Part shown: one piece after another, positions 11,338 to 28,755 of the stretch | Position numbering within the stretch: the stretch's first letter is position 1 | Layout of the letters: every line of letters starts with the position of its first letter | Source: Lutibacter sp. A80 | GTDB lineage: Bacteria > Bacteroidota > Bacteroidia > Flavobacteriales > Flavobacteriaceae | DNA length: 64,000 nucleotides | Assembly (NCBI RefSeq): GCF_022429645.1 | Contig: NZ_CP092480.1 | Span: forward strand, 2,710,501 to 2,774,500 | Direction: 5' to 3' | Made by a program: the position numbers and the translations under genes | Notes under the pieces: model-generated | Seen by the model: only the letters and a program-made list of their open reading frames with translations | What the model was told of the DNA's origin: nothing | Databases searched by the model: none

Positions 11338-11374
11338 AAACCTAACAGGTGAGTAAGCTTGTTAGGTTTTTTTT
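11338..11374. terminator. Intrinsic terminator after hflX
   Basis: Stem CCTAACA (11341-11347) with TGTTAGG (11360-11366), extended by AAA/TTT and followed by T8 on the plus strand. It overlaps the stop of the convergent lytTR gene by a couple of bases and may serve both. Confidence 0.8.
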
Positions 11375-12086: not shown

Positions 12087-13192
12087 AACGGAATTTTTAA
12101 GTTAACTTTATAGAGTTCTTTTGTTTCAGAAATTTTAAAATCGAAATTATTTTTAAATAATAAAGTCAATCTTTTTTTGGTGTTTTCTATCCCAATTCCT
12201 GAAGCTTCATCGTCTTTTTTAGGATGATTACTGTTCTCTATTTCAAACACTAATTTATCTTCAGTAAAGTGCATTAAAATATTTATAAAAGAAGGTTTGT
12301 TATAGCTAATTCCGTGTTTAAAAGCATTTTCTAATAATGAAGTAAATAACAGTGGAGGTATTAGTTTATCTGGAATTTCTGAAGGAATATTTACATTAAT
12401 TTTTACTTTACTTGAAAAACGAAGTTTCATTAATTCAATATAACTTTCAATAAATTCAATTTCTTTTTTTATTGAAGTTGATTTTCCTTCAGAATCGTAT
12501 AATAAATGACGCATTAAATTAGATAATTTAATAATCGATTTTTTAGATTCTTCGGTATCAATATCAACTAATGCATGTATATTGTTAAGTGTATTCATAA
12601 AAAAATGTGGACTAATTTGGTTTTTTAAAAAGGCCAATTGATTTTCTACACTTTCTTTTTGAATTTTAAATTTTTCTTGCTCTAAATTTGCCCAACGCAT
12701 AGAGATCTGTAAACCAGCATTAAACCCAACTAATAGCACTGCTAAAATTAAAAAATTAGCAAATAACGGTATAGGTTTGGGGCTGTTGCTTAATCTTTGA
12801 TCTGATGGAGGTGGAAAATTTCTTCCTTGATGCATAGGAGGAGGATTTCCCTTTTTAAACTCCATTGTTTGAGGTTTTATATTAGGAATATCATTGTTTT
12901 TATCAAAAGCATAAATTCCAGTTGCTATAATTAAAATAACGAATGAAGTAACAACAAAGTACAATAGTTTTTTACTCTTAAAAAAAAGCTTAGGAAGTAG
13001 TATAAACCTATTTATTAAAAACAAGCCTAATAAAGGTAAATAGTTTATCCAAACCATAAAAACTTGATCCCATTCTATTTGTTTTTCATAACGACCAAAC
13101 AATAAAGGTGAAGCAAATAATAATGCCCAAAAGGCAATAATTATAAAAGGCTCAAAAGATGCAAAATTGTAATTTTTCTTTAAAAGTTTCAT
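12083..13192 (-). CDS. LytS-like membrane sensor histidine kinase
   Basis: 369 residues. Four membrane segments lie at about 13-33, 46-66, 76-96 and 143-163. They are followed by the His_kinase domain with the phospho-accepting His196 in QISPHFFMNTLNNIHALVD, and a HATPase with NAFKHG and GIGIENTKKRL. The loop between TM3 and TM4 (97-142) should be periplasmic and is unusual: it is rich in Pro, Gly, Asn, His and Arg (GNPPPMHQGRNFPPPSDQR) and could be the sensing element. It is the partner of the overlapping LytTR regulator gene. No LytTR-type repeat was found in its own promoter, so it is probably not autoregulated through that site. The CotH gene lies upstream, behind its own terminator. Confidence 0.92.
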   Translation of the reverse strand: MKLLKKNYNFASFEPFIIIAFWALLFASPLLFGRYEKQIEWDQVFMVWINYLPLLGLFLINRFILLPKLFFKSKKLLYFVVTSFVILIIATGIYAFDKNNDIPNIKPQTMEFKKGNPPPMHQGRNFPPPSDQRLSNSPKPIPLFANFLILAVLLVGFNAGLQISMRWANLEQEKFKIQKESVENQLAFLKNQISPHFFMNTLNNIHALVDIDTEESKKSIIKLSNLMRHLLYDSEGKSTSIKKEIEFIESYIELMKLRFSSKVKINVNIPSEIPDKLIPPLLFTSLLENAFKHGISYNKPSFINILMHFTEDKLVFEIENSNHPKKDDEASGIGIENTKKRLTLLFKNNFDFKISETKELYKVNLKIPL

Positions 13193-13275
13193 TTTTTATG
13201 GTGTACTTACTAGTTTTTTTAATAGAGAAGAGTTTCTAAAACAAGTTCAGTTTAACAATGTTAAGTTGTAAACAA

Positions 13276-13330
13276 TCAAAAAAATATCTTTGTTTATGTT
13301 GTTTAAATAGTAAACACAAACAAAGATATT
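13276..13330 (-). terminator. Intrinsic terminator of the CotH gene
   Basis: A perfect 13-bp stem, AATATCTTTGTTT (13283-13295) with AAACAAAGATATT (13318-13330), with further imperfect pairing inside. On the minus strand it is followed by a T-run. It lies 10 bp after the CotH stop. Confidence 0.85.
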
Positions 13331-13339
13331 AAAACTAAA

Positions 13340-14800
13340 CTAATTCAAATAATTATTTACAGCAGATGCTCTGCTTGCAGCATGTGCTTTTAATGTTGTA
13401 ATTGCAGAATAAAAAGAATTGCTATTACTTAAAAATGAATATCCGTTTAACTCTGTAGTAGCATAAGGTTCAACTAAGCTTGAGTATGTGTCATAAACTT
13501 CTTGAATGTAACTTGTTTCAAAAGGTCCATTAATTGTTGCTTGCACATAGCTATCGTATTTAGCTCTATATACTTCATCATTATATAAATATTCAATTAA
13601 AGGCCAATCTCCACTTGAAAGGTCAGAAAAGTCTAGGTTTAAAGAACCGCCTAGTTTTCCTTCTTGTAAAGCTTCATTATTATCCCAAGGAATCCACGTT
13701 ATTAAATTATTCTCTGGATTGTTGTATAAATAATAGTTGTGTTCCATTCTACCGTAAGTATCCCAGTTTTGAACAATGGTGTTAACGGCTAAATAATTTA
13801 AAAATGTATCTACATCGAAAACTGCTTCTAAATCTGTTCTCCAACTTTCGGCATCTGTAGTTCTTGTTGTTGCGTGTAAGGCTGAGAATACATTTTTAAT
13901 ATCTGTCCAGTCGGCATCATCTTCATTGGTTTTTTTCACAAAACCATCTTCATTAAAAGTACCTTCAGCAAAACTAGCTCCATAATCTTCAGGCTTGTAT
14001 AAATTACCATCGTCACTAGAAAATTGTGTGTCAATTACAGTTCCATCAACCTCTTCAACCAAAGTATATAATCCAAAATATTCTGGTCCATCTCCGTGAT
14101 CTACATAAAGTGTATAAAATGATGTATTTGATACTGCTAATCCAGCATTTTTAAATACTTCAGCAGTTACTTTTTCTCTTAAGAAAGAACTGTCATCATA
14201 ATTATTTTTTAGACTAAATTTTTTGAAACCATAAAAACGTTGGTTTTTTATTTGAGGGTAATCATCTTCAAATTCGTCAAAATCCATTTTAAAAGCTAGC
14301 TTTAAAATACCTGCTTGCCAAGCACTTTGTAAACTAGAATTTCCTTTAAAACGCAAACCTACTTTGTACCATTCTTTACCGTTGTAATACACAGAACCTG
14401 GAACAAAAACAGGGTCTTCATCTGAAAAAGTTGAAGTTGTTGTTCCTCCACCAGGAAGGTTTCCACCTGGGCCAGAGTTACTACCTCCAAAATTTCCATA
14501 TAAATCGGTCATATTATTTAGCATTGCTTCCCAATTGTCTTCAGAAATAACAAAATCAAACCTTTTTACTTCGGTATCACTAAAAACTTCATCAAAATTT
14601 GGATCTGCATTTTTACTATGTGTTTCTTCTGTCCAGTCGGTAGGTTCAAAATCTAAATCTGTAATTTGTACTTCTGTATTTGTACCTTCTCCAATTTCTG
14701 TTTCTATATCTGCAACTGTATTCGCATCATCTGTACAACTAACTAAAAAGTAAGTAGACAATACTAAAAGGCTTGTTTTTATTAAAAATGTTGTTTTCAT
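13340..14800 (-). CDS. CotH kinase family surface lipoprotein
   Basis: 486 residues. A lipoprotein signal peptide ends at Cys22 and is followed by TDDAN, an acidic stretch of the kind that directs flavobacterial lipoproteins to the cell surface. A Gly/Ser/Thr-rich linker (about 98-118) precedes the CotH domain. Visible family features are GLRFKGNSS, an SLKNNYDDSSFLREK segment, the FGLYTLVEEVDG segment, EHNYYLYNN and the WIPWDNNEAL segment. CotH proteins are atypical protein kinases first described on spore coats; bacterial non-sporulating homologs are frequent but poorly understood. The gene has its own promoter with a 21-bp-spaced direct repeat shared with four neighbouring units, and its own terminator. 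Partner proteins or substrates may be the co-regulated lipoproteins and Spy-like proteins, which is inference. Confidence 0.88.
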   Translation of the reverse strand: MKTTFLIKTSLLVLSTYFLVSCTDDANTVADIETEIGEGTNTEVQITDLDFEPTDWTEETHSKNADPNFDEVFSDTEVKRFDFVISEDNWEAMLNNMTDLYGNFGGSNSGPGGNLPGGGTTTSTFSDEDPVFVPGSVYYNGKEWYKVGLRFKGNSSLQSAWQAGILKLAFKMDFDEFEDDYPQIKNQRFYGFKKFSLKNNYDDSSFLREKVTAEVFKNAGLAVSNTSFYTLYVDHGDGPEYFGLYTLVEEVDGTVIDTQFSSDDGNLYKPEDYGASFAEGTFNEDGFVKKTNEDDADWTDIKNVFSALHATTRTTDAESWRTDLEAVFDVDTFLNYLAVNTIVQNWDTYGRMEHNYYLYNNPENNLITWIPWDNNEALQEGKLGGSLNLDFSDLSSGDWPLIEYLYNDEVYRAKYDSYVQATINGPFETSYIQEVYDTYSSLVEPYATTELNGYSFLSNSNSFYSAITTLKAHAASRASAVNNYLN

Positions 14801-14871
14801 TTTACGCTTGTTTATTGTTATTATTAATTTAGAGCGAAATTCTATTTTTTAGATATAATTTTAAAAAAGAA

Positions 14872-14901
14872 TCAATGAACTGGCGTTTTTTATCTACGAA
14901 A
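14872..14901 (-). promoter_or_regulatory. Putative LytTR operator upstream of cotH
   Basis: Plus-strand half-sites ATCAATGAA (14872) and ATCTACGAA (14893) are exactly 21 bp apart, with TGGC between them. The edge lies 71 bp from the CotH start codon and 28 bp from a degenerate -7 element (14836-14843). The reverse complement of the second half-site, TTCGTAGAT, resembles published LytTR half-sites. Confidence 0.65.
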
Positions 14902-14915
14902 ACATAAATAAGCAT

Positions 14916-14954
14916 TAAAAAAAAACTCCAATAATTAAAATATAATTATTGGAG
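14916..14954 (-). terminator. Intrinsic terminator of the first Spy-like gene
   Basis: Perfect 12-bp stem, CTCCAATAATTA (14927-14938) with TAATTATTGGAG (14943-14954), loop of 4. On the minus strand it is followed by T9. Confidence 0.88.
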
Positions 14955-14993
14955 CCTTAACTTAACCTAAACATTTATTAATTCAAACTTACT

Positions 14994-15413
14994 TTATGAT
15001 CTTCTTTTTTTAGTATTCTTTTTTAGATAAGCTGTGTACAGTTTTTGTTGATCTTCTGTTAAAACAGCTTTAACGTTATCTTCAAAATCTTCTTTTAGTG
15101 CTTGCATTTCATCTCTATCTGGTCTTCCAGAGCTTGATTTACTTTCAATTTCTTCAAAGTATTCTTTATACAACACTAGAATTTTCGATTGTTGATCTTC
15201 TGATAATAGAATTTCGTTTGATAATTCACTTACCATTTCTTCAATTTGTTCTGTAGTTGGAGCTGCTGGACGTGCTTGTTGTGTTTGTTGTCCTCCACGT
15301 TGACCACCTCTTTCGCCACCTCTTTGGCCACCTCTTTGTTGTGCAAAGGCAGATGTTGAAACTATTAGGGCAATAATTAAAACTTTCCAAACTTTTCTTT
15401 TACTTATATTCAT
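14994..15413 (-). CDS. Spy-like (LTxxQ) small exported protein with RGG-rich linker
   Basis: 139 residues. A signal peptide ends at AFAQ (residue 25). It is followed by a low-complexity segment of GGQRGG/GGERGG repeats and QTQQ (about 26-50), then a helical domain containing two LTxxQ-like motifs, LLSEDQQ and VLTEDQQKLYTAYLKK. This is the signature of the Spy/CpxP refolding chaperone group, although the protein is short and the family call is from motifs only. It is a paralog of the protein at 16884-17288. It has its own promoter with the 21-bp repeat operator and its own terminator. The Arg/Gly-rich linker is unusual for Spy proteins and recalls the low-complexity segments of its neighbours. 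A periplasmic location is expected. Confidence 0.75.
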   Translation of the reverse strand: MNISKRKVWKVLIIALIVSTSAFAQQRGGQRGGERGGQRGGQQTQQARPAAPTTEQIEEMVSELSNEILLSEDQQSKILVLYKEYFEEIESKSSSGRPDRDEMQALKEDFEDNVKAVLTEDQQKLYTAYLKKNTKKRRS

Positions 15414-15493
15414 AATTAATTTTTTAAATTATAATTCTATTCTTATTAATCTTACTTCAAATTAACAACAACTTATTATTGTTAAAAAATAAA

Positions 15494-15523
15494 ATCAATG
15501 AATAGGCTAATTTCATCTACCAA
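15494..15523 (-). promoter_or_regulatory. Putative LytTR operator upstream of the first Spy-like gene
   Basis: Plus-strand half-sites ATCAATGAA (15494) and ATCTACCAA (15515), 21 bp apart, with AGGC between. It lies 80 bp from the start codon. A -7-like element (plus-strand CAAATTAA, 15458-15465; read on the minus strand as TTAATTTG) is 28 bp away. Confidence 0.65.
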
Positions 15524-15542
15524 ATAGATGATTTATTTGTTT

Positions 15543-15585
15543 GAAAAAATAAAGTCTCGTTATTTATACTAAAAATAACGAGACT
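15543..15585 (-). terminator. Intrinsic terminator of the Spy-like/DUF1566 operon
   Basis: Perfect 13-bp stem, AGTCTCGTTATTT (15553-15565) with AAATAACGAGACT (15573-15585), followed on the minus strand by a T-rich tract. Confidence 0.87.
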
Positions 15586-15615
15586 AAACCTAAAACAAAC
15601 AATTATAAACCAAAC

Positions 15616-16875
15616 TTAATTTATATCTCTAACCAATCTTACATAATTAAAATAACGTTCAGCATCTTCTCCAGCAGGACCATCTTCATCTTTAGTGTCA
15701 AATCGAACTCCTCCAGCACCATGAAAATCTTCACCATCAGCATTTACAGCTCTACCAAATGCAACATACCAAGCATAATAATAAGGTTGTCCGCTTGTAA
15801 AGTTAGCTGACGTACTTGTCCAATAATAACCATAATCATCATATCCAGCTTCACTTGTCATTTCTGTACAATTAAATATTGGATCTATTGCAGGTCCAAC
15901 ATTTGCTGGATCAGTTGCAGTTGGAGAACGTGAGTAATCTACAATACCTTGTAGTTCTTTAACATTAGGTAAACGCCAGTCTGTATAACCTGCTAATTCA
16001 GAATTTTCGGCATACGCTAATGCGTCTTCCCAATCCAATACTACACCATCATCATCTTTAGCCCACATTAAGCCCGTATTATTATCTGAAATAGTATTAT
16101 TTCCATTATCTACAAAATTATTAGTACCATAAGTATCTCCTCTTACTGCGCGTACATATTTTGCTAAAGGATTACCAGTTGGAATACCACTTCCGTCAGC
16201 TGGAGGAGGAGTTCCAGTATCAGGAGGAGTTCCAGCATCTATACCTCCATCTGCTGGCATTGAAGCTGCGTAGGCTTTAATATGTCCGGTTACAATATTA
16301 ACACCAAAGGCAGCGTTTGATCCACCTTCAACGGTAACACCAACATATAAATTACTGGACCAAAATTGTTCATCTTTAGAGATTTCTCCACTTGCTAATG
16401 CAAAATAATCAGTATCTATATATGGCCAGCCCTTGCCAAAATCGGCAACTGAATAGAGTTCTTTTAAGCTTGGCAATCTCCAATCATCATAACCTCCTAA
16501 TTCAAGATTTTCGCAATATTCTTTAGCTTCTTCCCAAGTAAACTCATCAGTTGTAGGTATTTGTTCCCACATTAAGCCTGTATTATTATCTGTTATAGTT
16601 CCATCGTTATTATCTTTAAAAGACATAGTTGCCCCTTTTTGGTAATTAGCATCTTGTCCATAAAAGCGATCTCCAGTATTTAAACTACTTAATACTTCAC
16701 CATCATTATTGTATAATGTTGTTTGTCCTGTAGCAATTTGGATGTAATTATTTATGGTTAATTCTGAAGTAGAATCTGTGTCAGTACCCGTAATTTCATC
16801 TTCGCTACAACTTGTGAATGAAATAAACAAAAATACAAGCGCTAGTAAACTAAATTTTTTCATTGTTGTTTTCAT
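15616..16875 (-). CDS. DUF1566 (Lcl-type) surface lipoprotein, copy 1
   Basis: 419 residues. A lipoprotein signal peptide ends at Cys23, followed by SEDE, an acidic surface-export-type signal. Two DUF1566/Lcl C-terminal-type domains follow, at about 90-205 and 250-415. Each has the signature DNxTGLMW, an ExxxxxELGGYxDWRLPSLKEL-like core and a WSS/WTST strand. The linker (about 205-235) is Gly/Pro-rich (GTPPDTGTPPPADG). DUF1566 domains relate to C-type-lectin-like folds in some structures, but the role is unknown. The gene is 8 bp downstream of the second Spy-like gene and lacks its own operator, so the two are one operon. A paralog with the same two-domain build lies at 17488-18780. Confidence 0.85.
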   Translation of the reverse strand: MKTTMKKFSLLALVFLFISFTSCSEDEITGTDTDSTSELTINNYIQIATGQTTLYNNDGEVLSSLNTGDRFYGQDANYQKGATMSFKDNNDGTITDNNTGLMWEQIPTTDEFTWEEAKEYCENLELGGYDDWRLPSLKELYSVADFGKGWPYIDTDYFALASGEISKDEQFWSSNLYVGVTVEGGSNAAFGVNIVTGHIKAYAASMPADGGIDAGTPPDTGTPPPADGSGIPTGNPLAKYVRAVRGDTYGTNNFVDNGNNTISDNNTGLMWAKDDDGVVLDWEDALAYAENSELAGYTDWRLPNVKELQGIVDYSRSPTATDPANVGPAIDPIFNCTEMTSEAGYDDYGYYWTSTSANFTSGQPYYYAWYVAFGRAVNADGEDFHGAGGVRFDTKDEDGPAGEDAERYFNYVRLVRDIN

Positions 16876-16883
16876 TATAATAA

Positions 16884-17288
16884 TTAATTTCTTTCCGGTC
16901 TTCTTCTTTTATTATTCTTTATTAGATAAGCTGTATACAATTTTTGTTGATCCTTTGTTAAAACAGTCTTTACATCAGTTTCAAAATCATCTTTTAAAGC
17001 TTCCATATCTTCTCTTTTTGGCATACCAGAACTCGTTTTACTTTTCACCTCTTTAAAGTGTGCTTTGTAAAGTGCTAGTATTTCTGTTTCTTGTTCTCCT
17101 GATAATAAAATCTCTTTTGATAATTCACTAACCATTGTTTTAATTTCCTTAGAATTTGGCACTTCTGGTGGACCTTGTTGATTACCTCCTTGACCATTTT
17201 CTGGACCTCTTTGTTGTGCAAAAGTTGTTGTTGTAATTACCAATGCTAAAACAACTATAGCCCAAATTTTATTCGTTTTTAATTTCAT
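16884..17288 (-). CDS. Spy-like (LTxxQ) small exported protein, second copy
   Basis: 134 residues. A signal peptide ends at TFAQ, then a short Gly/Pro/Gln/Asn-rich linker (RGPENGQGGNQQGPPEVP) and a helical domain with LLSGEQE and VLTKDQQKLYTAYLIK, aligning along its length with the paralog at 14994-15413. The linker keeps the Gly-rich character but has lost the Arg repeats. Spy/CpxP-like periplasmic chaperone or stress-sensor activity is a guess from the LTxxQ motif. It heads a two-gene operon with the first DUF1566 lipoprotein (8-bp gap) and carries its own LytTR-like operator and -7-like element. Confidence 0.75.
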   Translation of the reverse strand: MKLKTNKIWAIVVLALVITTTTFAQQRGPENGQGGNQQGPPEVPNSKEIKTMVSELSKEILLSGEQETEILALYKAHFKEVKSKTSSGMPKREDMEALKDDFETDVKTVLTKDQQKLYTAYLIKNNKRRRPERN

Positions 17289-17366
17289 AATTTAAAGTTT
17301 TTTATTTTTAATGATCTCTAATTCTTTATTCAAAGTAACGCAAGTTTTAGCGTGTGAAGAACTAAA

Positions 17367-17396
17367 ATCAATGAACTGGCATATTTTATCAATGAA
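17367..17396 (-). promoter_or_regulatory. Putative LytTR operator upstream of the second Spy-like gene
   Basis: A perfect direct repeat: ATCAATGAA at 17367 and again at 17388, 21 bp apart, with TGGC between. It lies 78 bp from the start codon. A -7-like element (plus-strand CAAAGTAA, 17331-17338; minus-strand TTACTTTG) is 28 bp away. This is the cleanest of the five sites. Confidence 0.7.
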
Positions 17397-17421
17397 TAAA
17401 ATTTTATAGTTAAAATATGAT

Positions 17422-17458
17422 TAAAAAAAGCTTGTTATTTCCATAGAAAACAACAAGC
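17422..17458 (-). terminator. Intrinsic terminator of the second DUF1566 gene
   Basis: Stem GCTTGTT (17430-17436) with AACAAGC (17452-17458), followed on the minus strand by T7. It lies about 30 bp past the stop at 17488. Confidence 0.78.
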
Positions 17459-17487
17459 CTTTAACAATATTAACCAAATAATTGTTA

Positions 17488-18780
17488 CTAATTTATATCT
17501 CTAACCAAACGTACATAATTCAATATTCTAATGGCATCTCCTTGTGGGCCATGTCCATCTGAAAATTCACTTGGATCACCATCTTTTGGATCGCTTCGTT
17601 GAGCTCCTGCTCCATGAACATCAGTCCAAATATCGGTTCCCATATTACCCATACAACGACCAAATGCTAAATAAACTCCCCATCCACCTTCCATGTCATC
17701 AGACTCAGCTTCGTGGGTTGTACTACTCCAATACCAAGGATAATCATCTTCACCAGCTTCATTCTCAATTACTGTGCAATTAAACACATCATCAATAGTT
17801 GCGGAATTCGTTGTTGCTGGAGATTTTGTATAATCTACAATTCCTTGTAATTCTTTTGCGTCAGGTAAACGCCAATCACTATAACCGCCAAATTCAAAGT
17901 TCTCTGCGTAACTTAAGGCATCTTTCCAAATCATACTTGTAGCACTATCATCTTGCATCCACATTAAACCTGTTGCATTATCAGATATGGTACCATCGCC
18001 ATTGTCGGTATATTCATTAATTCCATAAGTTTCACGACCACGAACCAATAAATAATTAAACATTTTGTCTCCATTCATTTCGGTTCCGTATCCTTTAATA
18101 CGTCCATCAGCTAGATTAACTCCAAAAACAGTTTCATCAACTTCATCACTTACATAAATAGCTGTAGTTGCACATTGTACATCAATTAAACGTTCCATGG
18201 CTTTAGTATCACCATAATCAAATTCAAAGTAATCTGTATTTATAAAAGGAATTAAACCTGTTGTATCATCCCCTTGAACAGAACTTATATCACGACCATT
18301 AAACATCATAAGGGAATACATTTCTTTAATTGTAGGCACACGCCAATCGGTATAACCTCCAGTAGAAGCAGTATTTACAACCTCAAGAATATCGTTATAT
18401 GATAATTTATCATCGGCATTAATACTACCGTCTCCATTGTGATCGAAAGATTGTTCCCACATTAAGCCTGTAACCATATCGGTTACTGTACCATCTCCAT
18501 TATCTTCGTAGCTTGGTGTTGTTCCAGGGTAATTTGCATTTTGCCCATAAAAGTCATCACCTACAAATTGTGTAGTGGTTTCAGTTGTATTATTAAAAAA
18601 TTTTGATTGATTAGTACCAACAATAGGAAATCCTGAAATATCAGGTAAATTTTCTGAAGTTTCTTCTGTCCCGTCGGTTGTATAAGTTATTGCATCGTCA
18701 TCTTCACAAGCTATTATTGTAAAAGCCATGCATACACTAAAACATAGTAAGCTTAATTTTTCAAGTGTCATTGTTTTCAT
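17488..18780 (-). CDS. DUF1566 (Lcl-type) surface lipoprotein, copy 2
   Basis: 430 residues, paralog of the protein at 15616-16875. A lipoprotein signal peptide ends at Cys25, followed by EDDDA, a strongly acidic surface-export-type signal. Two DUF1566 domains follow, each with GLMW, a GGYxDWR(V/L)P core and a WSSTT-type strand; the first also has an acidic, Ca-binding-like loop (FDHNGDGSINADDKLS, EF-hand-like spacing). Function is unknown. It is a single-gene unit with its own LytTR-like operator and terminator, placed between the redox module and the Spy-like/DUF1566 operon. Two diverged copies in one regulon suggest two forms of one surface component. Confidence 0.85.
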   Translation of the reverse strand: MKTMTLEKLSLLCFSVCMAFTIIACEDDDAITYTTDGTEETSENLPDISGFPIVGTNQSKFFNNTTETTTQFVGDDFYGQNANYPGTTPSYEDNGDGTVTDMVTGLMWEQSFDHNGDGSINADDKLSYNDILEVVNTASTGGYTDWRVPTIKEMYSLMMFNGRDISSVQGDDTTGLIPFINTDYFEFDYGDTKAMERLIDVQCATTAIYVSDEVDETVFGVNLADGRIKGYGTEMNGDKMFNYLLVRGRETYGINEYTDNGDGTISDNATGLMWMQDDSATSMIWKDALSYAENFEFGGYSDWRLPDAKELQGIVDYTKSPATTNSATIDDVFNCTVIENEAGEDDYPWYWSSTTHEAESDDMEGGWGVYLAFGRCMGNMGTDIWTDVHGAGAQRSDPKDGDPSEFSDGHGPQGDAIRILNYVRLVRDIN

Positions 18781-19026: not shown

Positions 19027-20796
19027 TTATACTGGCCAAGTATTAAAAGGTTGCTTTTCAAACTGCATAGTGCCATCTTCACCCTTAAATATATTTAGCC
19101 AAACTTGCCAGTTTTTAGTATCCATTTCTGGGTAATCTAATCGGTAATGACTACATCTACTTTCTGTTCGCATAATAGATGCTTTCAGTTTCATTTCAGC
19201 ACTAATAATCATATTTTTTGTTTCATGTGCTAAACGTAACTCGTGCATATTGGAAGCCCTTAACATGGGTATATGATGATCTCTTAATTCTTCTACATAA
19301 GCTAAAGCAGCTTTTAATAAATTCTCTTTTTTTATGTAAATAATAAAATTAGGAATCATAATACCTTGTAAAGTTTGTGTTACCCAAGCAGGACTATAAC
19401 CTGCTTCAAGTTTTAAAGGTGTTAATATTCCTTCTTCAATTTCTTTTAATTTTGAAGCTGATATATTAACAGATTTTATGTTTTTAGAGTATTTAGCGGC
19501 CGCTTCACCTGCAACACCTCCTTGTACAGCCGAACCAGCTAAGGATGATCCAATTTGAGTATAAATTGCACCAGCCATATAGGAGCCTAATGCATCTCCA
19601 GCAGCATATAGTCCTGGGATAGTAGATTCACATTGATCGTTTATTGGTACTAATCCTTCAGATTTATGTATTGCCATTCCTGCAGAAGAGCCACCAACTA
19701 TACTTCCTCCCATTCCTGGAGGTGCTCCTTCTCCTTTACCTCCTTTTGGTGGGCCTCCTTTTCCACGTTTTGGTGGTCTTCCACCTTCTTTTCTTCCTGG
19801 TGGAGTATCATTTTGACGCGTAAATTCTTCTGGTGTATAAGGGCCTCCACTAACATCGGTTTGTTCTCCTGATCCTGGAGGTCCCATTTTTAAAGGACTT
19901 CCATTTTTATAAGCTACATAATTCATATCTACACCTAAATCGTGACGAATTTCTACACCTGTTGTACTTGGTTTTTGTTCAAACATATCTCCCCAACCAT
20001 CGTAACAAGCTGCTGCATTTTCTGATTTTCCTGGATGACCATCATTCCATTCTTTACCTGTAACTTTTGCCCCAATATTATAGGCCATTATTGTGCCGTC
20101 GTGGGTAAGGTCGCAAATTGGAAAACCGTTTGGTTTAAAACCTCCAGCGCCAGTACATAAAATAACACTTTTTGCTTCATAAAACACTATTTTTTGTGTG
20201 TCTATACTAAAACCTGCAGCACCAACAACCTTAGCGTTTTCTTTTATTAAATGTGTAATAGTAATACGTTCTTGTACTGGTATATTTCTTTCTTCAATAG
20301 GTTTGCTAAAGCTTTTATTATACAATGATGAATCAAAAAATCCCCACTCTTTTAATTCATTTACGCGAGTCAAAGAATGCTGAGCCATTTGCTTGGTGTA
20401 AGCATTATTATTTGTTCCTAAAGCTGAACGAGAAACTTTTGCAACAAATTCATCTAAACTTAGGTTTTCTTTTTCTGGATCAAAGGCAAAAATACCTTTA
20501 GCAAAAGGAGTTTGACCAGAGGCACCTAATCTTCCTTTAGAAACCATTATTACTTTTGCACCAGCATCATGTGCTTTTACTGCTGCAAATAAACCTGCCA
20601 TTCCACTTCCTATTACCAATACATCGGTTTTAATTTTATCTGTATTTAAAGAATCAACATCAATTTCAGGATTATTTAAAGCCCAGTCTACTGGCATTCC
20701 TATTGCCGACATTGCAGCTAAACTTGCAGCAGCTCCACCCGCTAAGCTTATAAATTTTCGTCTAGACATTTCCTGTTTTTTGTTTGGCTTTTTCAT
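19027..20796 (-). CDS. Tat-exported FAD-dependent oxidoreductase (fumarate reductase flavoprotein-like)
   Basis: 589 residues. A twin-arginine signal (SRRKFISLAGGAAASLAAMS, 11-30) sends it, folded with FAD, across the inner membrane. The FAD_binding_2 fold shows the dinucleotide motif GSGMAG (63-68), LTHDG (230-234) and GLYAAGDALGS (395-405). The C-terminal ESRCSHYRLDYP (545-556) is characteristic of succinate dehydrogenase/fumarate reductase/AprA flavoproteins. An unusual insert (about 304-365) is rich in Gly, Pro and Lys (PPKRGKGGPPKGGKGEGAPP). The start overlaps the stop of the membrane gene by 4 bp, so it is the last gene of a three-gene operon with a bis-heme membrane protein and an 8Fe ferredoxin. 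It is probably a periplasmic reductase or dehydrogenase; the substrate is unknown. Confidence 0.87.
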   Translation of the reverse strand: MKKPNKKQEMSRRKFISLAGGAAASLAAMSAIGMPVDWALNNPEIDVDSLNTDKIKTDVLVIGSGMAGLFAAVKAHDAGAKVIMVSKGRLGASGQTPFAKGIFAFDPEKENLSLDEFVAKVSRSALGTNNNAYTKQMAQHSLTRVNELKEWGFFDSSLYNKSFSKPIEERNIPVQERITITHLIKENAKVVGAAGFSIDTQKIVFYEAKSVILCTGAGGFKPNGFPICDLTHDGTIMAYNIGAKVTGKEWNDGHPGKSENAAACYDGWGDMFEQKPSTTGVEIRHDLGVDMNYVAYKNGSPLKMGPPGSGEQTDVSGGPYTPEEFTRQNDTPPGRKEGGRPPKRGKGGPPKGGKGEGAPPGMGGSIVGGSSAGMAIHKSEGLVPINDQCESTIPGLYAAGDALGSYMAGAIYTQIGSSLAGSAVQGGVAGEAAAKYSKNIKSVNISASKLKEIEEGILTPLKLEAGYSPAWVTQTLQGIMIPNFIIYIKKENLLKAALAYVEELRDHHIPMLRASNMHELRLAHETKNMIISAEMKLKASIMRTESRCSHYRLDYPEMDTKNWQVWLNIFKGEDGTMQFEKQPFNTWPV

Positions 20797-21434
20797 TTTT
20801 TTGAAGTTTTAAATAAATAAGTTTTTAGCAAATAGTATGTTCCGCTTACCACCATTAATACATAATAAATTGCGAATGAAGTATTGCTATGGCGTCCCAT
20901 ATTTACTACATGCCAAGTAGCAGTTATTACAAATAACAAGGTTAAATAGCCATGTAAATTTCTCCATGTTCTATATTTTAAATACAATTTAAATCTGAAA
21001 AATGAAGTAACTAAAATTATAAGCATGGAAGAGTAGGCGATTAAACCAAGTATAATTCCTAAACTACTAAAGGTTGTAATTAATTTTAAAAAAGCATCTG
21101 TAGGTGTAACTCCATTGTCGAAAAACTTTGGAACAATAATAAAAAACGGATGTAATAATAAAATTGAAATAAATAAATAACCAATAAATTTATGAATTTT
21201 TAAAACATTAACCATTCTAATACTTTTAACTAAATCTTTATTGATTCTTGTTAAAAAAAACTGAGATAAAAGCAAGGTAAACCCTAAAATGGTTATTAGT
21301 GAAAGTGCTTCCATAAGGTAACCTCTCTTTGGAAAATTACCTAAATTGTATAAAATAATTGGTGTAATAATAAAAGCAACAACCAATAGTATTATTTTTT
21401 TTATATAATTTTTATTTTTCATAACTAACCCCAT
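20793..21434 (-). CDS. Ferric-reductase-like bis-heme membrane protein
   Basis: 213 residues with about six membrane segments. Four His sit in two pairs: His81 and His95 in one helix and His161 and His175 in another, each pair 14 residues apart. This is the spacing that coordinates two stacked b hemes in the ferric reductase/NOX transmembrane domain, and the RNLHGYL and TWHV segments fit that family. There is no FAD/NADPH domain attached, so it likely passes electrons across the membrane between the ferredoxin and the exported flavoprotein encoded beside it. The start used gives a 10-bp overlap with the ferredoxin gene; the in-frame ATG at 21422 would remove it and leaves MKNKNYIKK before the first helix. 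Both are possible. Confidence 0.85.
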   Translation of the reverse strand: MGLVMKNKNYIKKIILLVVAFIITPIILYNLGNFPKRGYLMEALSLITILGFTLLLSQFFLTRINKDLVKSIRMVNVLKIHKFIGYLFISILLLHPFFIIVPKFFDNGVTPTDAFLKLITTFSSLGIILGLIAYSSMLIILVTSFFRFKLYLKYRTWRNLHGYLTLLFVITATWHVVNMGRHSNTSFAIYYVLMVVSGTYYLLKTYLFKTSKK

Positions 21435-21640
21435 GATACAATTACTGGTATAGATTTATCTGGTGTGATTGTAATAGCGTCAACAGGACAATACATACGA
21501 CAGAGGTGACATATTTGACAATCTTCCGGATATAAAATTTCGGCTTTTTTTGAATCAGGATTTAACCTAATTACATCTGTAGGACAGCTTTTAATGCATT
21601 CCTCGCAACCAATACATCCATTAATACTTTTAATTGGCAT
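21425..21640 (-). CDS. 2x[4Fe-4S] ferredoxin
   Basis: 71 residues with two complete CxxCxxCxxxCP motifs: Cys9, 12, 15, 19 and Cys41, 44, 47, 51. It resembles the AprB/dicluster ferredoxin type in its first part. There is no signal peptide, so it is cytoplasmic. It heads the operon ferredoxin, bis-heme membrane protein, Tat flavoprotein, and its promoter carries three 21-bp-spaced LytTR-like half-sites. It probably feeds electrons from a cytoplasmic donor to the hemes; the direction of flow is inference. It is not a general housekeeping ferredoxin, judging by context. Confidence 0.9.
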   Translation of the reverse strand: MPIKSINGCIGCEECIKSCPTDVIRLNPDSKKAEILYPEDCQICHLCRMYCPVDAITITPDKSIPVIVSWG

Positions 21641-21858: not shown

Positions 21859-24753
21859 TTATTCTTTTATAATTTTAAGTAAAACAGGACTATCTAAATA
21901 TACTTTGGCAAAGTATAAACCAACAGTATTGTTGGATAGGTTTAATTGAACTTTACCATTTACTACCTCGTAATTTTTTGTAGATATTAGTTGAGATTGT
22001 GTATTATAAATTTCAATTTTCATAGTGCTTTGTGAAACAGGAACAGCAATTTCAAAGGTACCTTTTGTTGGATTAGGATATGCTGTTATACTTTCAACTA
22101 AATTCATGTTTTTAGAAAACACACCTTCACAGGTTACACTACTTTTAATCTGAATACTATCTCCATATTTAGCATTTATAGTAAATGAGGAGTCTAATGT
22201 TTGTAAAATTAAAGTGTCATTTACAAATACATTAAAAGGAGCTGTTCCTTCTGAAATATTTATTGAAACTTTACCAGAACTAACGCTTGCTTTACCAGAT
22301 ATTATTGTTCCTTCTTCTATAACAACATCAAAACATTGTTCATAATCTTCACCTGCTACTTCAATACAAATTGTATAATTTCCAGGCTCTAAATCTTTAT
22401 TTTGTAAAGTAGCGGCAGTACCATTTAATGTAACGTTATATGTATAATCTTCTTGGGCAGTTATTAAAATTTGACCGTTGTTTTTATCAGGGCACGTTTC
22501 ACTAATAGTTTGAATGCTAAAGTTATTTGCTGGCAATGTAAAACAACCAGAAGTATTAACACTTGAACCAGGTGTTGAATTTTCACATAAATCAATATTA
22601 TTCATAACACCATCTCCGTCATCGTCTAATTGACTGTCTGAACAACCGTTTTCATCAACAGTTTCTCCAGCAGGAGTATCTGGACAGGTATCTATATTGT
22701 TCATAACACCATCATTATCATCATCTAATTGACTGTCTGAACAGCCATTTTCATCAACAGTTTCACCTTCAGGAGTATTTGGACAAGTATCTACATTATT
22801 TACAACACCATCTCCGTCATCATCTAATTGACTGTCTGAACAACCGTTTTCATCAACAGTTTCTCCAGCAGGAGTATCTGGACAGGTATCTATATTGTTC
22901 ATAACACCGTCAATATCATCATCTAATTGACTGTCTGAACATCCATTTTCATCAACAGATTCACCTTCAGGAGTATTTGGACAAATATCAATACTATTTT
23001 CTACACCATCTTCATCATCATCTAATTGGCCATTTGAGCAACCATTTTCATCAACAGGTTCACCAGCAGGCGTATTTGGACATAAATCATCTTCATTTAA
23101 AACACCATCTTCATCAATATCATCACTAATTTCAGCAGTAATTTCAAAACTATCAACAGTCCATCTTGTTGGACTTCCATTAGAATAGTATTTAAATGCT
23201 ATATAAACAGTTCCAGTAATTGAACTAATATCTACATTTGAAAACGAATAAACCTCTTCTGTTGAACCTCCATTTGAATGTGTAGGAATGTTAATATTAG
23301 GCATTGCAGTCCATGTAAAATCACTAGGATTACTTGATCCATCGTAATTTGAAGAATAAACCAATTCTAAAGTTGAACTTCCATAAGCGGCATCGGTGTA
23401 AAAACTTAATTTTTCAGCTGTACTTTCGTCAAAATTTATTGGAGAAGTTGTAATTAACCAATCTTTGCTCGTTACATCTTCGTTAAATCCATTCATACCA
23501 TAAGATCCAGAATTATTTTCTCCAAAAACAGTACTGCATTCCCAATTTTTGTTACTTTCTTCATTATATGCAACAAATTGAACATTTGCACAATTTTCAA
23601 AATCTTCATTTATTAAATAATATGGCCCTTCTAAAGTTGTAAAACTAACTTCTCCTTCACCGGATAAATTAGATGCTACATCTCTAGCTTTTATAGTTAC
23701 TGTATAATTAGTTGAAGCATTTAATCCTGAAATTATTGTTGAATTTGTAGTTGAATTTTCAGATTGTAAGTACTCTCCATTTAAATAAATTAAATAATCA
23801 TATATCGCAACATTATCTGTTGAAGCATCCCAAGTAATTACAGTGCTTTCGTTGGTAGTATTAGATGTTATTAAATTTGAAGGTGAAGTTGGAGCTTCGT
23901 TATCAGAAGTATTATCAGACCACCATTTGTCTTCAGCTTGCAAACCTCCCCAAATTAAGGTTGCTAAATATGGATTGTCTATAAATGGATTTCTATTACC
24001 TTGTATGCCGGCTAAAACCTCGTTTCTATTAGCTTCAAAATCAGATACAGGATCTTCTACATTCCATTTTAAAAATAAGTCAACCATATTTTCATCAACC
24101 GTTAATGTAGTTCCAAAACCAACATTAATAGGTAAACAATTTGTTTGAGAAATTTGATTTCCAGCGCCATGGTATCTGGTGTACATATACATTACAATTC
24201 TAGCAATATCTCCTTTCCACTCATCTCCAGGATACCAACCTCCATTACTAGAAACTGTACCAGAATTACCAGATCCATCTGTAAATTTTCTATTACTCCT
24301 ATCTGAATTTCTTTCTGAATCTGCAGGTCGTAAATTGTGTACATCAGTTCCAGGACCAGGTTCATCAGTTCCTAAACCTGGGTTTGCTAAAGATTTTGCA
24401 AATACGTGTTCTCTGTTCCATCTTTCAGGGTCACCACCTCCAGTATCTTTTAAATCTTTATCTCTAGATCTATCTGTATTAGGAATTCCATCGGTATCGT
24501 TATATCCATAAATTAACAATACATTATCTGCATTATCTGGATCTTCATCAGCACGTCTACAAGCCTCCCAAACATCTATAGAAGGTCCTGTATATGGAAT
24601 AGCTGAATGTGTACTTTCTAATTTTTCAGAAAGCTCTAAAAATAGTTCGTTACCAGTTTTTTCTAAATCTAAATCAAGATAATAACTTTGAATTTGCCCA
24701 TAAAAAGGGATAATTGTTATAAATAGCAGTATTGAGAGTGTAGTTTTTTTCAA
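21859..24753 (-). CDS. Endonuclease I family exoprotein with TSP3 repeats and T9SS sorting domain
   Basis: 964 residues. Signal peptide (1-19, ending FYG). Endonuclease I domain (about 35-275) with the catalytic His116 in RWNREHVFAKS and the DVHNLRPADSERN segment (137-149); enzymes of this family cut DNA without strong sequence preference. Next come a fibronectin type III domain (about 286-375), a choice-of-anchor J-type beta-sandwich (about 376-540), five to six Asp-rich thrombospondin type 3 repeats of 33 residues (about 545-735), an SprB-like or Ig-like module and a C-terminal T9SS type A sorting domain (AYPNPTKG, ending LLKIIKE). It is secreted by the type IX system and possibly kept at the surface. 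About the last 230 residues closely match the C-terminus of the metalloprotease encoded upstream. A role in extracellular DNA degradation is likely. Confidence 0.93.
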   Translation of the reverse strand: MKKTTLSILLFITIIPFYGQIQSYYLDLDLEKTGNELFLELSEKLESTHSAIPYTGPSIDVWEACRRADEDPDNADNVLLIYGYNDTDGIPNTDRSRDKDLKDTGGGDPERWNREHVFAKSLANPGLGTDEPGPGTDVHNLRPADSERNSDRSNRKFTDGSGNSGTVSSNGGWYPGDEWKGDIARIVMYMYTRYHGAGNQISQTNCLPINVGFGTTLTVDENMVDLFLKWNVEDPVSDFEANRNEVLAGIQGNRNPFIDNPYLATLIWGGLQAEDKWWSDNTSDNEAPTSPSNLITSNTTNESTVITWDASTDNVAIYDYLIYLNGEYLQSENSTTNSTIISGLNASTNYTVTIKARDVASNLSGEGEVSFTTLEGPYYLINEDFENCANVQFVAYNEESNKNWECSTVFGENNSGSYGMNGFNEDVTSKDWLITTSPINFDESTAEKLSFYTDAAYGSSTLELVYSSNYDGSSNPSDFTWTAMPNINIPTHSNGGSTEEVYSFSNVDISSITGTVYIAFKYYSNGSPTRWTVDSFEITAEISDDIDEDGVLNEDDLCPNTPAGEPVDENGCSNGQLDDDEDGVENSIDICPNTPEGESVDENGCSDSQLDDDIDGVMNNIDTCPDTPAGETVDENGCSDSQLDDDGDGVVNNVDTCPNTPEGETVDENGCSDSQLDDDNDGVMNNIDTCPDTPAGETVDENGCSDSQLDDDGDGVMNNIDLCENSTPGSSVNTSGCFTLPANNFSIQTISETCPDKNNGQILITAQEDYTYNVTLNGTAATLQNKDLEPGNYTICIEVAGEDYEQCFDVVIEEGTIISGKASVSSGKVSINISEGTAPFNVFVNDTLILQTLDSSFTINAKYGDSIQIKSSVTCEGVFSKNMNLVESITAYPNPTKGTFEIAVPVSQSTMKIEIYNTQSQLISTKNYEVVNGKVQLNLSNNTVGLYFAKVYLDSPVLLKIIKE
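22550..23125 (-). repeat. Tandem 99-bp repeats encoding thrombospondin type 3 modules
   Basis: Six in-frame copies (the last degenerate) of a 33-codon unit with the core DDDxDGVxNNxDTCPxTP. Copies three and five are almost identical in DNA, so a 198-bp higher-order unit has been duplicated. TSP3 modules bind calcium and form a stiff spacer. Confidence 0.9.
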
Positions 24754-24924: not shown

Positions 24925-27900
24925 TTATTCTTTAATAATTTTAAGAACTATAGGCTCTTCTAAATAAACTTTTGCAAAGTATAATCCTGTAGCATTATTA
25001 GCTAAATTTAATTGAACCTTATTATTAGTTACCGTATAATTTTGTACAGAAATTAATTGTGACTGTATATTGTACACTTCAATTTTTACAGTGTTTACAG
25101 AAACTGGTAACGCAATTTCTAAATTTCCTTTTGTAGGATTTGGGTATGCAATAATTTCATCGAACAAATTAATTGTTTTTGCAAAAACACCTTCACAAGA
25201 AACACTAGATTTTATTTCAACTTTATCTCCGTGGTTTACATTAATTGTAAAAATTGGAGCAGCAGTTTCTAAAGTTATTTTATTGTTTACATAAACTATA
25301 AATGGACCAGTACCTTGTTCTATTTCTATAGCAGCTTTTCCAGAATCGATAGCTACTTTTCCAGAAATTGTAGTTCCTTCATCTATAACCACATCATAAC
25401 ACTGTTTATAATTTTCATCTTCTTCAACACCAATACAAATAGTATAATTTCCAGGAGGTAAATCCGTATTTTGTAACGCAGCTGCAACTCCATTTAATGT
25501 TACATTGTATGTATATGTTTCTTTAGCTGAAATTAAAATTTGACCATTATCTTTGTTTGGACAAGTTTCACTAATAGTTTCTATTGTAAAATTATCTGCT
25601 GGTAAAGAGAATATTGGGCATCCTGAACTATCTACAGTACTTCCTAAAGGAGTTTCAGGGCAAATATCATCTTCATTAAAAACACCATCTTTATCATCAT
25701 CGTTACTATTTACAGCCACCCCACAAATTTCTATGCTCCAACTATTAATAGAACCTGTATCTTCTGGCCCGGCATCAATAGCTTGCAATATCCAATCTCC
25801 ATAAGATTCTTCTTCATTAAAAGCGGCTAAATTACCTTGAGGTTTAAAAGTTCCTGTAAAAGGAGGGGTTCCAGAAGTTATGGATACTTCAGCACTATCA
25901 TCAAAATTTGTATTTGTATAATTTAGCCCCTCATTTCCATTGTTTGCAGATAATAATACTTTTGTGCCTGTTGGGCTAATTAAATATAAAGATAAATCTC
26001 CAACCCACTCGTGAGGAGCAGTTACTGTAACATTTACATCTGTAATAATTTTATTGGTTGTTATACTTATATTTGAATTTGCTCCTGTGGTATTATTATC
26101 AGGTATATTTATTGGTTTATTTATTGAAGTATATGAATCGCAAACAACATTTGCTGTTGTAAAGCTGTAGTAATTTGAAAAAGCACTTTCACTACAGTTA
26201 TTAGTTCCTTTTATTCTCCAATAATAAGTGGTGTTAAATTCTAAAGATTGAGGTTCGAAATATGAGGAATTTAAGGTTGCAGTTTCTAAAACAGTTTCAA
26301 ATAATGCATCTGATGCTATTTCGATAATATAATTTTTAATATTTTCATCTTCGTTCCAGCTTAAATTATAAGGTGCTAATAATCCGCTACTTTCATTTTC
26401 TGGAAAACTTAATATTGGAGTATTTATTTGAGATGAAAATATATTTAATTCAATAGCTGTGTTCTTAGTTGTTGAAGTAGAAGTACCTGTTACAGTTATA
26501 TTGTAAAAACCAACATTATCGTTATCTATTCCTGTTATCGTCATTTCAACAGCAGTATTATTTGCAGTTGCAGTTGTAGGGTTAAAACTTACTGAGGTAC
26601 CATCAGGCAGGCCTGTTGCAGAAAATGTAGTTTCTTCATTAAAATCTAAAAACGTATTGTAGGTCATGTTGTAAACAACATTATCTGGAGCACAAGCATC
26701 TAAATTAAAGTTTTCAAAATTCATAATAAATTCTGAAGATTGTACTGAAATATTTGCAGTGTTTACGTTAAAAAAGATATTACCAACACTTTCAATTTTA
26801 ATTCTTCCGGTTGTTGTTGTAATATTAGGGCTTACAATAGTATGTGTACCATTATTTAGCACATTAGAAGCTAAGGTAATAGGATATGTTAATCCCCCAT
26901 CTTCAGAAAATAAAATATTTACATGAGAGCAATTTATAGGTGAACTATCGGTATTAGCAACATCCCAGTTAATTATTTGTGCTGTACCTGCATCCCAACT
27001 TTCTTGGGTAGTCTGTGTTGTTAATTTAAAAGCTTCTGCTTTATCTGAAAATGTTATTTCTGTTATATCACTGGCGGTTTGCCCTCCGTTTTCGTTATTA
27101 TCTCTAACAGTAACCGCAAACGTCATTGTTCGTGAAACAGAAGGTAAAACCTCCCATTGATTAGATGTATTACCACCTAAAATAGTTGACATATTAGGAA
27201 ATGTTCTTTCGGGGTTTTCATTTGGTTCTAGAGATCTAAATGCCGGACCTCCAGTTGCAGTAGAAACAAGGGGATGTGTTGCGGATTCAGTATCTATTTG
27301 TTCCCAAGTATATGTTAAAAGATCATTATCTGCATCTGAAGCAGTTGCGGATAAAACAAAAGGTGTAGAAACAGGGATTGTATAATTTTGAAGGCTTTCA
27401 ATTACCGGAGTGTTATTATTGGTATTAGAAATTTCAGCACAAGCACTACTATTTCCTTCAGTAATATTTGCCCACATTTCTTGAATACTTACATAGTGAA
27501 AATAAGCATCACTTGCATTTTGAATATTTTGAGGAGAGCATAAACCAGCGTATGCCATAATAGTTGAGCCACTTCCTGGTTCAACAGCAGTACCTTGATT
27601 AATGTTACCATTACAATTTCCAGAACTTGTATTAAATGTATGATGCGCCCCAAATTGATGTCCCATTTCATGTGCAACATAATCAATATCATAAGTATCT
27701 CCAATAGGATTGTTAGAACCTGTAATTCCACTGGCTTTTCCATTAGAGGTACAAGGTGAATTTAATTGAGCTAAACCTCCACCTCCAGTACTAAAAGTAT
27801 GTCCAATATCATAATTATCGGTTCCAATGGTGCTGTTTATTATTGATTGACTTTGATCAATTAATTCTTCAGAATCATCGTTTGTAAAACCATCTGTTGT

Positions 27901-28755
27901 TGCATCTAAAAAAATAATGTCTGTATTGTTATCAACTAAAACCATTGTTAAAGCCACATCTCTTTCAAAAATACCATTAACACGTGTCATAGTTGTTGCT
28001 ATAGCAGATAATACGGCAACCTTTTTAACAGAATCGGTTTCGGTTTCAGCAATTCCTTGTTGTGATAAATGAAATTGAGCATATTCACCAGTTGTAGCAA
28101 TGGCTAATCTGTAGGTTCTTAATTTTCCATCATTTGCATTTTCTGCTTTTGATGATGTATTTGAAGTTGTTTTAGTTCTATGCTTAATTTCAGTATTATA
28201 ATCATCGAATTTACAAACAAACTCCTCTTCTGGTTCAGGCGTATCAGTTTTTTTATATACTAAATACGATGTTTTATTTTTGGTATAAGGATCTATAAAT
28301 GTTGATTCTCCAGAATTTATTAATGTCATAGCATTTAAACCAGCAGCTGTAACACTAAATCGTATAGTTGTCCCCGGATTTTTAACACTTTTTCCGATGT
28401 AAGATTTAATTGTTGGGTATTTTTTTTGAAGTTTATCAGATAAAATAGGTGTTTCAAAAATCTCATAATTTTCTAATTCACCATTGCCATTTGGAAAATT
28501 TAAAGTAACACTAGAGTTTTTTAAATCTTCTTTTCTTTTTGGAGCATTTTTTAACTTGTTTTTCAAAGTTTCTAAATCTAAATCGTACAGTGTATATGCT
28601 TTAGGTATAGATTTTCTTGCTAATTTTGAAGCTGAACCTTTTTCTGAAATAGATTTTTTAGACCAAAGATTATCCGATTTTTGAGCAGAAGCAGAAAAAT
28701 ATTGAGTGGTAACAATTATAATTATTAATAAAAATCTAATATTTAAATACCTCAT
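24925..28755 (-). CDS. Secreted reprolysin-type zinc metalloprotease with P-domain and T9SS sorting domain
   Basis: 1276 residues. Signal peptide (ending SASA, about residue 24), then a propeptide-like region (to about 200). The catalytic domain (about 210-440) has the metzincin zinc site HEMGHQFGAHH with His362, Glu363, His366 and His372, and a Met-turn segment STIMAYAG. Ig-like domains (about 450-780) and a fibronectin type III domain (about 785-880) follow, then a proprotein-convertase P-domain (about 885-1030, with HEWVGDLSLYLISPTGT and WILQAIDAGPEDTG), one TSP3 unit, an Ig-like module and a T9SS type A sorting domain. It is exported by the type IX system and degrades extracellular protein. 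Its C-terminal module is nearly shared with the endonuclease I protein next door. Confidence 0.93.
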   Translation of the reverse strand: MRYLNIRFLLIIIIVTTQYFSASAQKSDNLWSKKSISEKGSASKLARKSIPKAYTLYDLDLETLKNKLKNAPKRKEDLKNSSVTLNFPNGNGELENYEIFETPILSDKLQKKYPTIKSYIGKSVKNPGTTIRFSVTAAGLNAMTLINSGESTFIDPYTKNKTSYLVYKKTDTPEPEEEFVCKFDDYNTEIKHRTKTTSNTSSKAENANDGKLRTYRLAIATTGEYAQFHLSQQGIAETETDSVKKVAVLSAIATTMTRVNGIFERDVALTMVLVDNNTDIIFLDATTDGFTNDDSEELIDQSQSIINSTIGTDNYDIGHTFSTGGGGLAQLNSPCTSNGKASGITGSNNPIGDTYDIDYVAHEMGHQFGAHHTFNTSSGNCNGNINQGTAVEPGSGSTIMAYAGLCSPQNIQNASDAYFHYVSIQEMWANITEGNSSACAEISNTNNNTPVIESLQNYTIPVSTPFVLSATASDADNDLLTYTWEQIDTESATHPLVSTATGGPAFRSLEPNENPERTFPNMSTILGGNTSNQWEVLPSVSRTMTFAVTVRDNNENGGQTASDITEITFSDKAEAFKLTTQTTQESWDAGTAQIINWDVANTDSSPINCSHVNILFSEDGGLTYPITLASNVLNNGTHTIVSPNITTTTGRIKIESVGNIFFNVNTANISVQSSEFIMNFENFNLDACAPDNVVYNMTYNTFLDFNEETTFSATGLPDGTSVSFNPTTATANNTAVEMTITGIDNDNVGFYNITVTGTSTSTTKNTAIELNIFSSQINTPILSFPENESSGLLAPYNLSWNEDENIKNYIIEIASDALFETVLETATLNSSYFEPQSLEFNTTYYWRIKGTNNCSESAFSNYYSFTTANVVCDSYTSINKPINIPDNNTTGANSNISITTNKIITDVNVTVTAPHEWVGDLSLYLISPTGTKVLLSANNGNEGLNYTNTNFDDSAEVSITSGTPPFTGTFKPQGNLAAFNEEESYGDWILQAIDAGPEDTGSINSWSIEICGVAVNSNDDDKDGVFNEDDICPETPLGSTVDSSGCPIFSLPADNFTIETISETCPNKDNGQILISAKETYTYNVTLNGVAAALQNTDLPPGNYTICIGVEEDENYKQCYDVVIDEGTTISGKVAIDSGKAAIEIEQGTGPFIVYVNNKITLETAAPIFTINVNHGDKVEIKSSVSCEGVFAKTINLFDEIIAYPNPTKGNLEIALPVSVNTVKIEVYNIQSQLISVQNYTVTNNKVQLNLANNATGLYFAKVYLEEPIVLKIIKE

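Follow-up and report, generated by a model that had tools for sequence, protein, structure and literature searches.

Three minus-strand genes stand head to tail, in the order ferredoxin, membrane cytochrome and flavoprotein, at 19027-21640 of the window (the whole 64,000-nucleotide stretch of Lutibacter sp. A80 DNA that was analysed). The locus raises the question of whether their products form a single electron path across the membrane, on which side of it the ferredoxin works, and what kind of molecule the flavoprotein acts on. A ferredoxin, a membrane protein of bis-heme type and a twin-arginine flavoprotein were what the original prediction had read here, and Pfam domains and sequence motifs place all three as follows.

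21425..21640, minus strand: ferredoxin, 71 aa, 2x[4Fe-4S] (Fer4, E 6e-11; two CxxCxxCxxxCP motifs)
20793..21434, minus strand: membrane protein, 213 aa, predicted six-helix FRD-type di-heme b cytochrome (PF01794)
21420-21422, minus strand: probable conserved start codon of the cytochrome, M5 (a conserved Met among relatives)
19027..20796, minus strand: Tat-signal flavoprotein, 589 aa, FrdA/AprA superfamily (PF00890, PF02910)

The genes had been described as overlapping by a few bases. This holds for the cytochrome and flavoprotein genes, which share 4 bp, but the 10-bp overlap of the ferredoxin and cytochrome genes depends on the annotated start, and becomes a 2-bp gap if translation begins at M5. 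As predicted, a Pfam search showed the FMN_bind domain (PF04205) to be absent from all three proteins, and covalent flavinylation was rejected on that ground.

Synteny was looked for in other genomes, and the order ferredoxin-cytochrome-flavoprotein was conserved in every locus uncut by a contig end, across at least five phyla, so the trio is not a chance arrangement. A contig scan recovered 25 loci with flavoproteins 66-93% identical. Carriers on the Bacteroidota side are Lutibacter, Winogradskyella, Mariniflexile, Jejuia, Maribacter, Aureibaculum, Ancylomarina, Carboxylicivirga and Puteibacter; further carriers are Desulforhopalus, Desulfogranum and other Desulfobacterota, Calditrichota and Verrucomicrobiota, and plasmid p599725 of Paracoccus seriniphilus has a copy whose flavoprotein is 63% identical. 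Occurrence is patchy, with the flavoprotein found in 9 of 38 genomes of the genus and in 4 of 395 sampled genomes of the phylum. The cytochrome is present in the same nine genus members, and the three proteins have correlated pairwise distances (r 0.79-0.85), which together with the conserved order means that the trio is inherited as a unit. Flavoprotein identity over all orthologues is 63-94%, about 70% across phyla, and those that belong to FRD modules fall into a single clade with 100/100 support. In this clade the copy on the Paracoccus plasmid and that of a Verrucomicrobiota MAG are grouped together, amid Bacteroidota sequences. Given this identity across phyla, the single clade and the patchy occurrence, the module has probably spread horizontally. 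Two module copies are present at unrelated sites in one Desulforhopalus sp. (G453; loci L022 and L062/L077). Another complete module (L044; G159:C4 14001-34000) lies in a genome of 1.8 Mb that has magnesium-chelatase-like genes and may be that of a green sulfur bacterium.

The membrane protein matches Ferric_reduct (PF01794) with an E value of 7.9e-11 and 42.5 bits, above the gathering score of 28. The ferric-reductase spacing claimed for its two His pairs was confirmed: H81/H95 and H161/H175 are 14 residues apart within each pair, and in the alignment all four are invariant in 25/25 relatives despite only ~39-80% identity to the query. Their codons are listed below, with the membrane side of the hemes predicted from topology.

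21192..21194, minus strand: His81, predicted inner-heme ligand with His161
21150..21152, minus strand: His95, predicted outer-heme ligand with His175
20952..20954, minus strand: His161, predicted inner-heme ligand
20910..20912, minus strand: His175, predicted outer-heme ligand

In the structural model (pLDDT 79), H81 lies in helix 74-93 and H95 at the start of helix 95-107, the two forming one kinked segment, and H161 and H175 are both in helix 154-179. Nearly the full length of the model could be aligned with cytochrome b561 at Z 14, with bacterial NOX (SpNOX) at Z 13 and with STEAP at Z 11-12, although Z values of 11-14 for a helical bundle are supportive rather than proof. The paired histidines would be expected to hold two hemes in series, in support of the original prediction. 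Hemes in series in FRD proteins are usually fed from the cytosolic side. With its six helices and two His pairs the protein resembles the ferric reductase domains of NOX and STEAP, but it has no NAD(P)H or FAD domain; an NAD(P)H-fed NOX was rejected, as the window protein consists of the membrane domain only.

The flavoprotein contains FAD_binding_2 (PF00890, E 1.2e-22) and Succ_DH_flav_C (PF02910, E 3.8e-12). Two of its regions are referred to here.

20689..20796, minus strand: N-terminal Tat signal region MKKPNKKQEMSRRKFISLAGGAAASLAAMSAIGMPV, with an SRRKFI twin-arginine motif and no obvious cleavage site
19702..19809, minus strand: loop of variable length, rich in Pro/Gly/Lys/Arg, in the capping (substrate-lid) domain region, from the alignment

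The export predicted for this protein is borne out at the level of motifs, since R12, R13 and F15 are invariant in 25/25 sequences, the RR motif is found in all modules with an intact flavoprotein N-terminus, and tatC was found in the Lutibacter sp. A80 genome. Segments rich in Pro, Gly, Lys and Arg were also seen in ECF-linked Spy-like proteins and in two unrelated types of linked sensor kinase (L035 15378-16493; L095 5321-6781; L043 6870-7427; L018 6110-6637), and a crude count, which includes a few doubtful ORFs, found segments of similar composition in 16/383 ORFs within 7 kb vs 0/106 beyond.

The flavoprotein had also been called fumarate reductase-like, and this is correct as far as the fold goes, but no further. 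In place of GSNRLGGNSL, with its substrate-binding Arg, the flavoprotein has GAIYTQIGSSL in the alignment, and T413 and Q414 at the dicarboxylate-Arg site are invariant in 25 flavoproteins. As the dicarboxylate-binding Arg is absent, the alignment indicates that the protein is something other than a fumarate reductase. The reading as a fumarate reductase or succinate dehydrogenase of the classical kind, moved to the periplasm, could draw on the two Pfam domains and on His254, which aligns with an SdhA His in the substrate region that is the substrate His of that enzyme. It is nevertheless highly improbable, given the altered Arg site, the lack of a three-cluster FrdB in the trio and scores far under the family cut-offs; all NCBIfam matches fall far below their thresholds, with the best complex II score at 157 bits against 718. 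Activity on fumarate or succinate was rejected on the missing Arg and the low family scores. Q95 occupies the position of the His used elsewhere for covalent FAD, so the FAD should be non-covalent. The nearest solved relatives of the flavoprotein are AprA, SdhA and PAPS reductase alpha, although its own model is poor (pLDDT 51) and the PDB search made with it counts as supporting evidence only.

AprA and PAPS reductase alpha flavoproteins are cytoplasmic and are not known to have a membrane cytochrome. Both the AprA-like fold (with archaeal PAPS reductase alpha, PDB 8a8o, among the best or near-best matches) and an associated 2x[4Fe-4S] ferredoxin gene are present here, and the alpha subunit of APS reductase works with a ferredoxin-like beta subunit (PMC8097209). 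The window proteins differ from AprAB in that the ferredoxin is only 71 aa long and ends in SWG, and both family cut-offs are missed: the flavoprotein scores 70.7 bits against 641.75 for aprA (TIGR02061), and the ferredoxin 26.4 bits against 135.65 for aprB (TIGR02060).

The ferredoxin itself is well conserved. Its orthologues are 70-100% identical and present in every complete locus, its C-terminal tail IPVIVSWG is conserved, and it diverges least of the three proteins, by 0.19 on average against 0.27 for the flavoprotein and 0.51 for the cytochrome. Among 30 distinct sequences, 25/34 positions are invariant in the second-cluster half vs 16/37 in the first half. Five distant relatives were examined (L071, L075, L080, L081 and one in Ilyobacter), and in all of them a ferredoxin gene lies near the flavoprotein gene; no FRD cytochrome occurs in the available sequence around these flavoproteins. 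The L075 flavoprotein is complete and has no Tat signal, with the ferredoxin gene 3 bp downstream; those of L071, L080 and L081 have truncated N-termini. The distant AprA-like flavoprotein and ferredoxin pairs of L080 and L081 adjoin genes of TAXI-type TRAP transporters. On plasmid pILYOP01 of Ilyobacter polytropus (L096 2422-10717), a ferredoxin ending in LVLSWS is followed by three related flavoproteins, two without a Tat signal and the third with one, and tatA-tatC-tatA comes directly after, possibly as a Tat system dedicated to flavoproteins of this family. The same run includes a NapH-like protein (FMN-binding, Fer4_5) as membrane partner and a Spy-like protein. In a 2013 survey, Ilyobacter had the only plasmid-borne tatC (PMC3827258).

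The ferredoxin and the flavoprotein are therefore the constant pair, while the membrane module varies, and the ferredoxin is probably the flavoprotein's own AprB-like electron-transfer subunit rather than a separate cytoplasmic donor; its ancestral partner would be the flavoprotein, since such pairs occur where no FRD cytochrome is in view. The original prediction had placed the ferredoxin in the cytoplasm. That placement was an inference from a sequence in which a signal peptide is absent, and the donor role it implied is doubtful in the light of these pairs. Co-export of the ferredoxin with the flavoprotein is possible by analogy with the 8-methylmenaquinol:fumarate reductase (MFR, SdhABE) of Wolinella, in which a Tat-signal flavoprotein of the same superfamily is exported together with its signal-less Fe-S subunit, so that the flavoprotein's signal takes the hydrophilic subunits through Tat (PMC2680327). 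MFR differs from the window system in its anchor, the heterodisulfide-reductase-related SdhE instead of a six-helix di-heme cytochrome, and in that it reduces fumarate.

The reading preferred here, which we hold with about even confidence, is of one membrane-bound, periplasm-facing oxidoreductase in which an AprAB-like ferredoxin and Tat flavoprotein sit on a di-heme FRD anchor and receive electrons moving outward. Its catalytic unit would be an AprAB-like heterodimer of the Tat-signal FAD subunit and the 2x[4Fe-4S] ferredoxin docked on it, the latter probably carried through Tat with the flavoprotein. The two-heme cytochrome would anchor this unit and link it to menaquinol or a cytosolic donor. 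Electrons would most likely pass from the donor to the inner heme, the outer heme, the [4Fe-4S] clusters and the FAD, and then to a periplasmic substrate, making the complex a reductase of a non-dicarboxylate molecule.

In the main alternative, the ferredoxin stays in the cytoplasm and reduces the inner heme, and electrons cross the two hemes to the exported flavoprotein, or run in reverse. The lack of a signal on the ferredoxin fits this arrangement, as does the FRD architecture, which in MsrQ/MsrP and NOX carries electrons from one side of the membrane to the other. A ferredoxin in the cytosol could also be the donor that FRD hemes usually have on that side, which counts against the preferred reading. 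In every FRD module, moreover, the ferredoxin gene adjoins the cytochrome gene and not that of the flavoprotein, which also speaks against co-export; a further point against co-export is that the Ilyobacter ferredoxin may serve its two flavoproteins without a Tat signal. Such a cytoplasmic donor would, however, require the flavoprotein to have gained a new direct heme-docking site, and it leaves aside that the same ferredoxin type, YPxDCQ motif included, accompanies related flavoproteins that have no FRD cytochrome in view and that, if their N-terminus is complete, carry no Tat signal. We regard it as a serious possibility, though a tentative one and somewhat improbable on balance.

Either wiring could in principle run inward, with a periplasmic dehydrogenase oxidising an extracellular substrate and passing electrons via the cytochrome into the quinone pool; this differs from the other readings in direction only. 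Both directions are known in the superfamily, occurrence as patchy as this would suit a catabolic accessory trait, and the module on the Paracoccus plasmid has sulfatase and transporter genes around it. Catabolic neighbours are not consistent across phyla, however: in the loci examined, no transporter, pathway or catabolic gene was consistently next to the module. Those members of the superfamily that are exported and have been characterised act as reductases (PMC8238504), and outward electron flow is the usual case for FRD proteins. For these two reasons the reductase direction is favoured, although sequence alone leaves it undecided, and the dehydrogenase is considered unlikely.

The surroundings of the module bear on its role. 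Downstream of the trio, at 11373-18780 on the minus strand of the window, are genes for a CotH-family protein and a His_kinase/LytTR two-component pair, together with two small Spy-like proteins and two lipoproteins of the Lcl_C/DUF1566 type. Many Bacteroidota have this set close to the module, and relatives add VTC, DUF4956 and DUF2490; other neighbours in this phylum include an EF-hand protein and either a LytTR two-component system or an ECF sigma factor paired with a Spy-like protein. Such surroundings suggest a regulated envelope role in Bacteroidota. A set of CotH, polyphosphate polymerase and DUF4956 is known from one paper to occur next to Gram-positive Pel clusters. Two genes upstream on the minus strand of the window encode large secreted proteins. 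One (21859-24753) is an endonuclease I that carries thrombospondin-3 repeats and, for sorting, a Por_Secre_tail domain; the other (24925-28755) is a putative zinc metalloprotease (HEMGHQFGAHH, recognised by eye).

These neighbours raise the further alternative that the enzyme, in either wiring, is an envelope-stress or repair reductase like MsrPQ that acts on damaged or modified envelope molecules and has no part in respiration. The Spy-like proteins, the ECF sigma factor or LytTR system, CotH, VTC, DUF4956 and Lcl_C would all be in keeping with such a role, as would the sensor kinase/regulator pair beside the Paracoccus copy. Strong-scoring CotH is present in 9/9 carriers of the genus vs 3/29 non-carriers, although these are related genomes and not independent observations. 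Most Desulfobacterota loci have no Bacteroidota-type neighbours, however (L024 has a DUF4956 gene nearby), which implies that the module can act alone, and we judge a dedicated repair function improbable, if still worth keeping in mind. Because the recurrent Bacteroidota set is missing from most Desulfobacterota loci, assignment of a substrate from the neighbours was rejected.

Each part of the system belongs to a known family, and modular MsrQ-like and NapH-like units and exported fumarate-reductase-like enzymes have already been described (PMC8238504). MsrPQ likewise has a PF01794 di-heme membrane protein that feeds a periplasmic oxidoreductase, but MsrP is a molybdopterin enzyme and the system has no ferredoxin or FAD subunit, whereas the partner in the window is an FAD protein. 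In the flavinylation-associated systems, which include MsrQ-like, NapH-like and fumarate-reductase-like types, interchangeable membrane modules feed exported enzymes, PF00890 proteins among them (PMC8238504, PMC11334425). The NapH-like FMN-binding partner in Ilyobacter is a point of likeness to these, but the window trio has no FMN_bind domain, with a ferredoxin in place of covalent FMN. The earlier view that the trio fits no complex that could be named was upheld, and no description of this gene combination was found in the open-licence literature.

The trio may represent a new class of respiratory or repair enzyme, in which a Tat-exported AprAB-type heterodimer on a NOX/MsrQ-type di-heme anchor acts on a new periplasmic substrate and has been exchanged horizontally among marine and sediment bacteria, a proposal that we rate just short of evenly balanced. 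It would add a new wiring of complex-II/APS-reductase-type flavoenzymes to the membrane exterior, by a NOX-type di-heme anchor alongside the known multiheme cytochromes, covalent FMN and SdhE subunit. If the ferredoxin is co-exported, this would be a further case of Tat co-export as in the Wolinella MFR. The trio is compact and present in cultured type strains, so the substrate can be sought directly.
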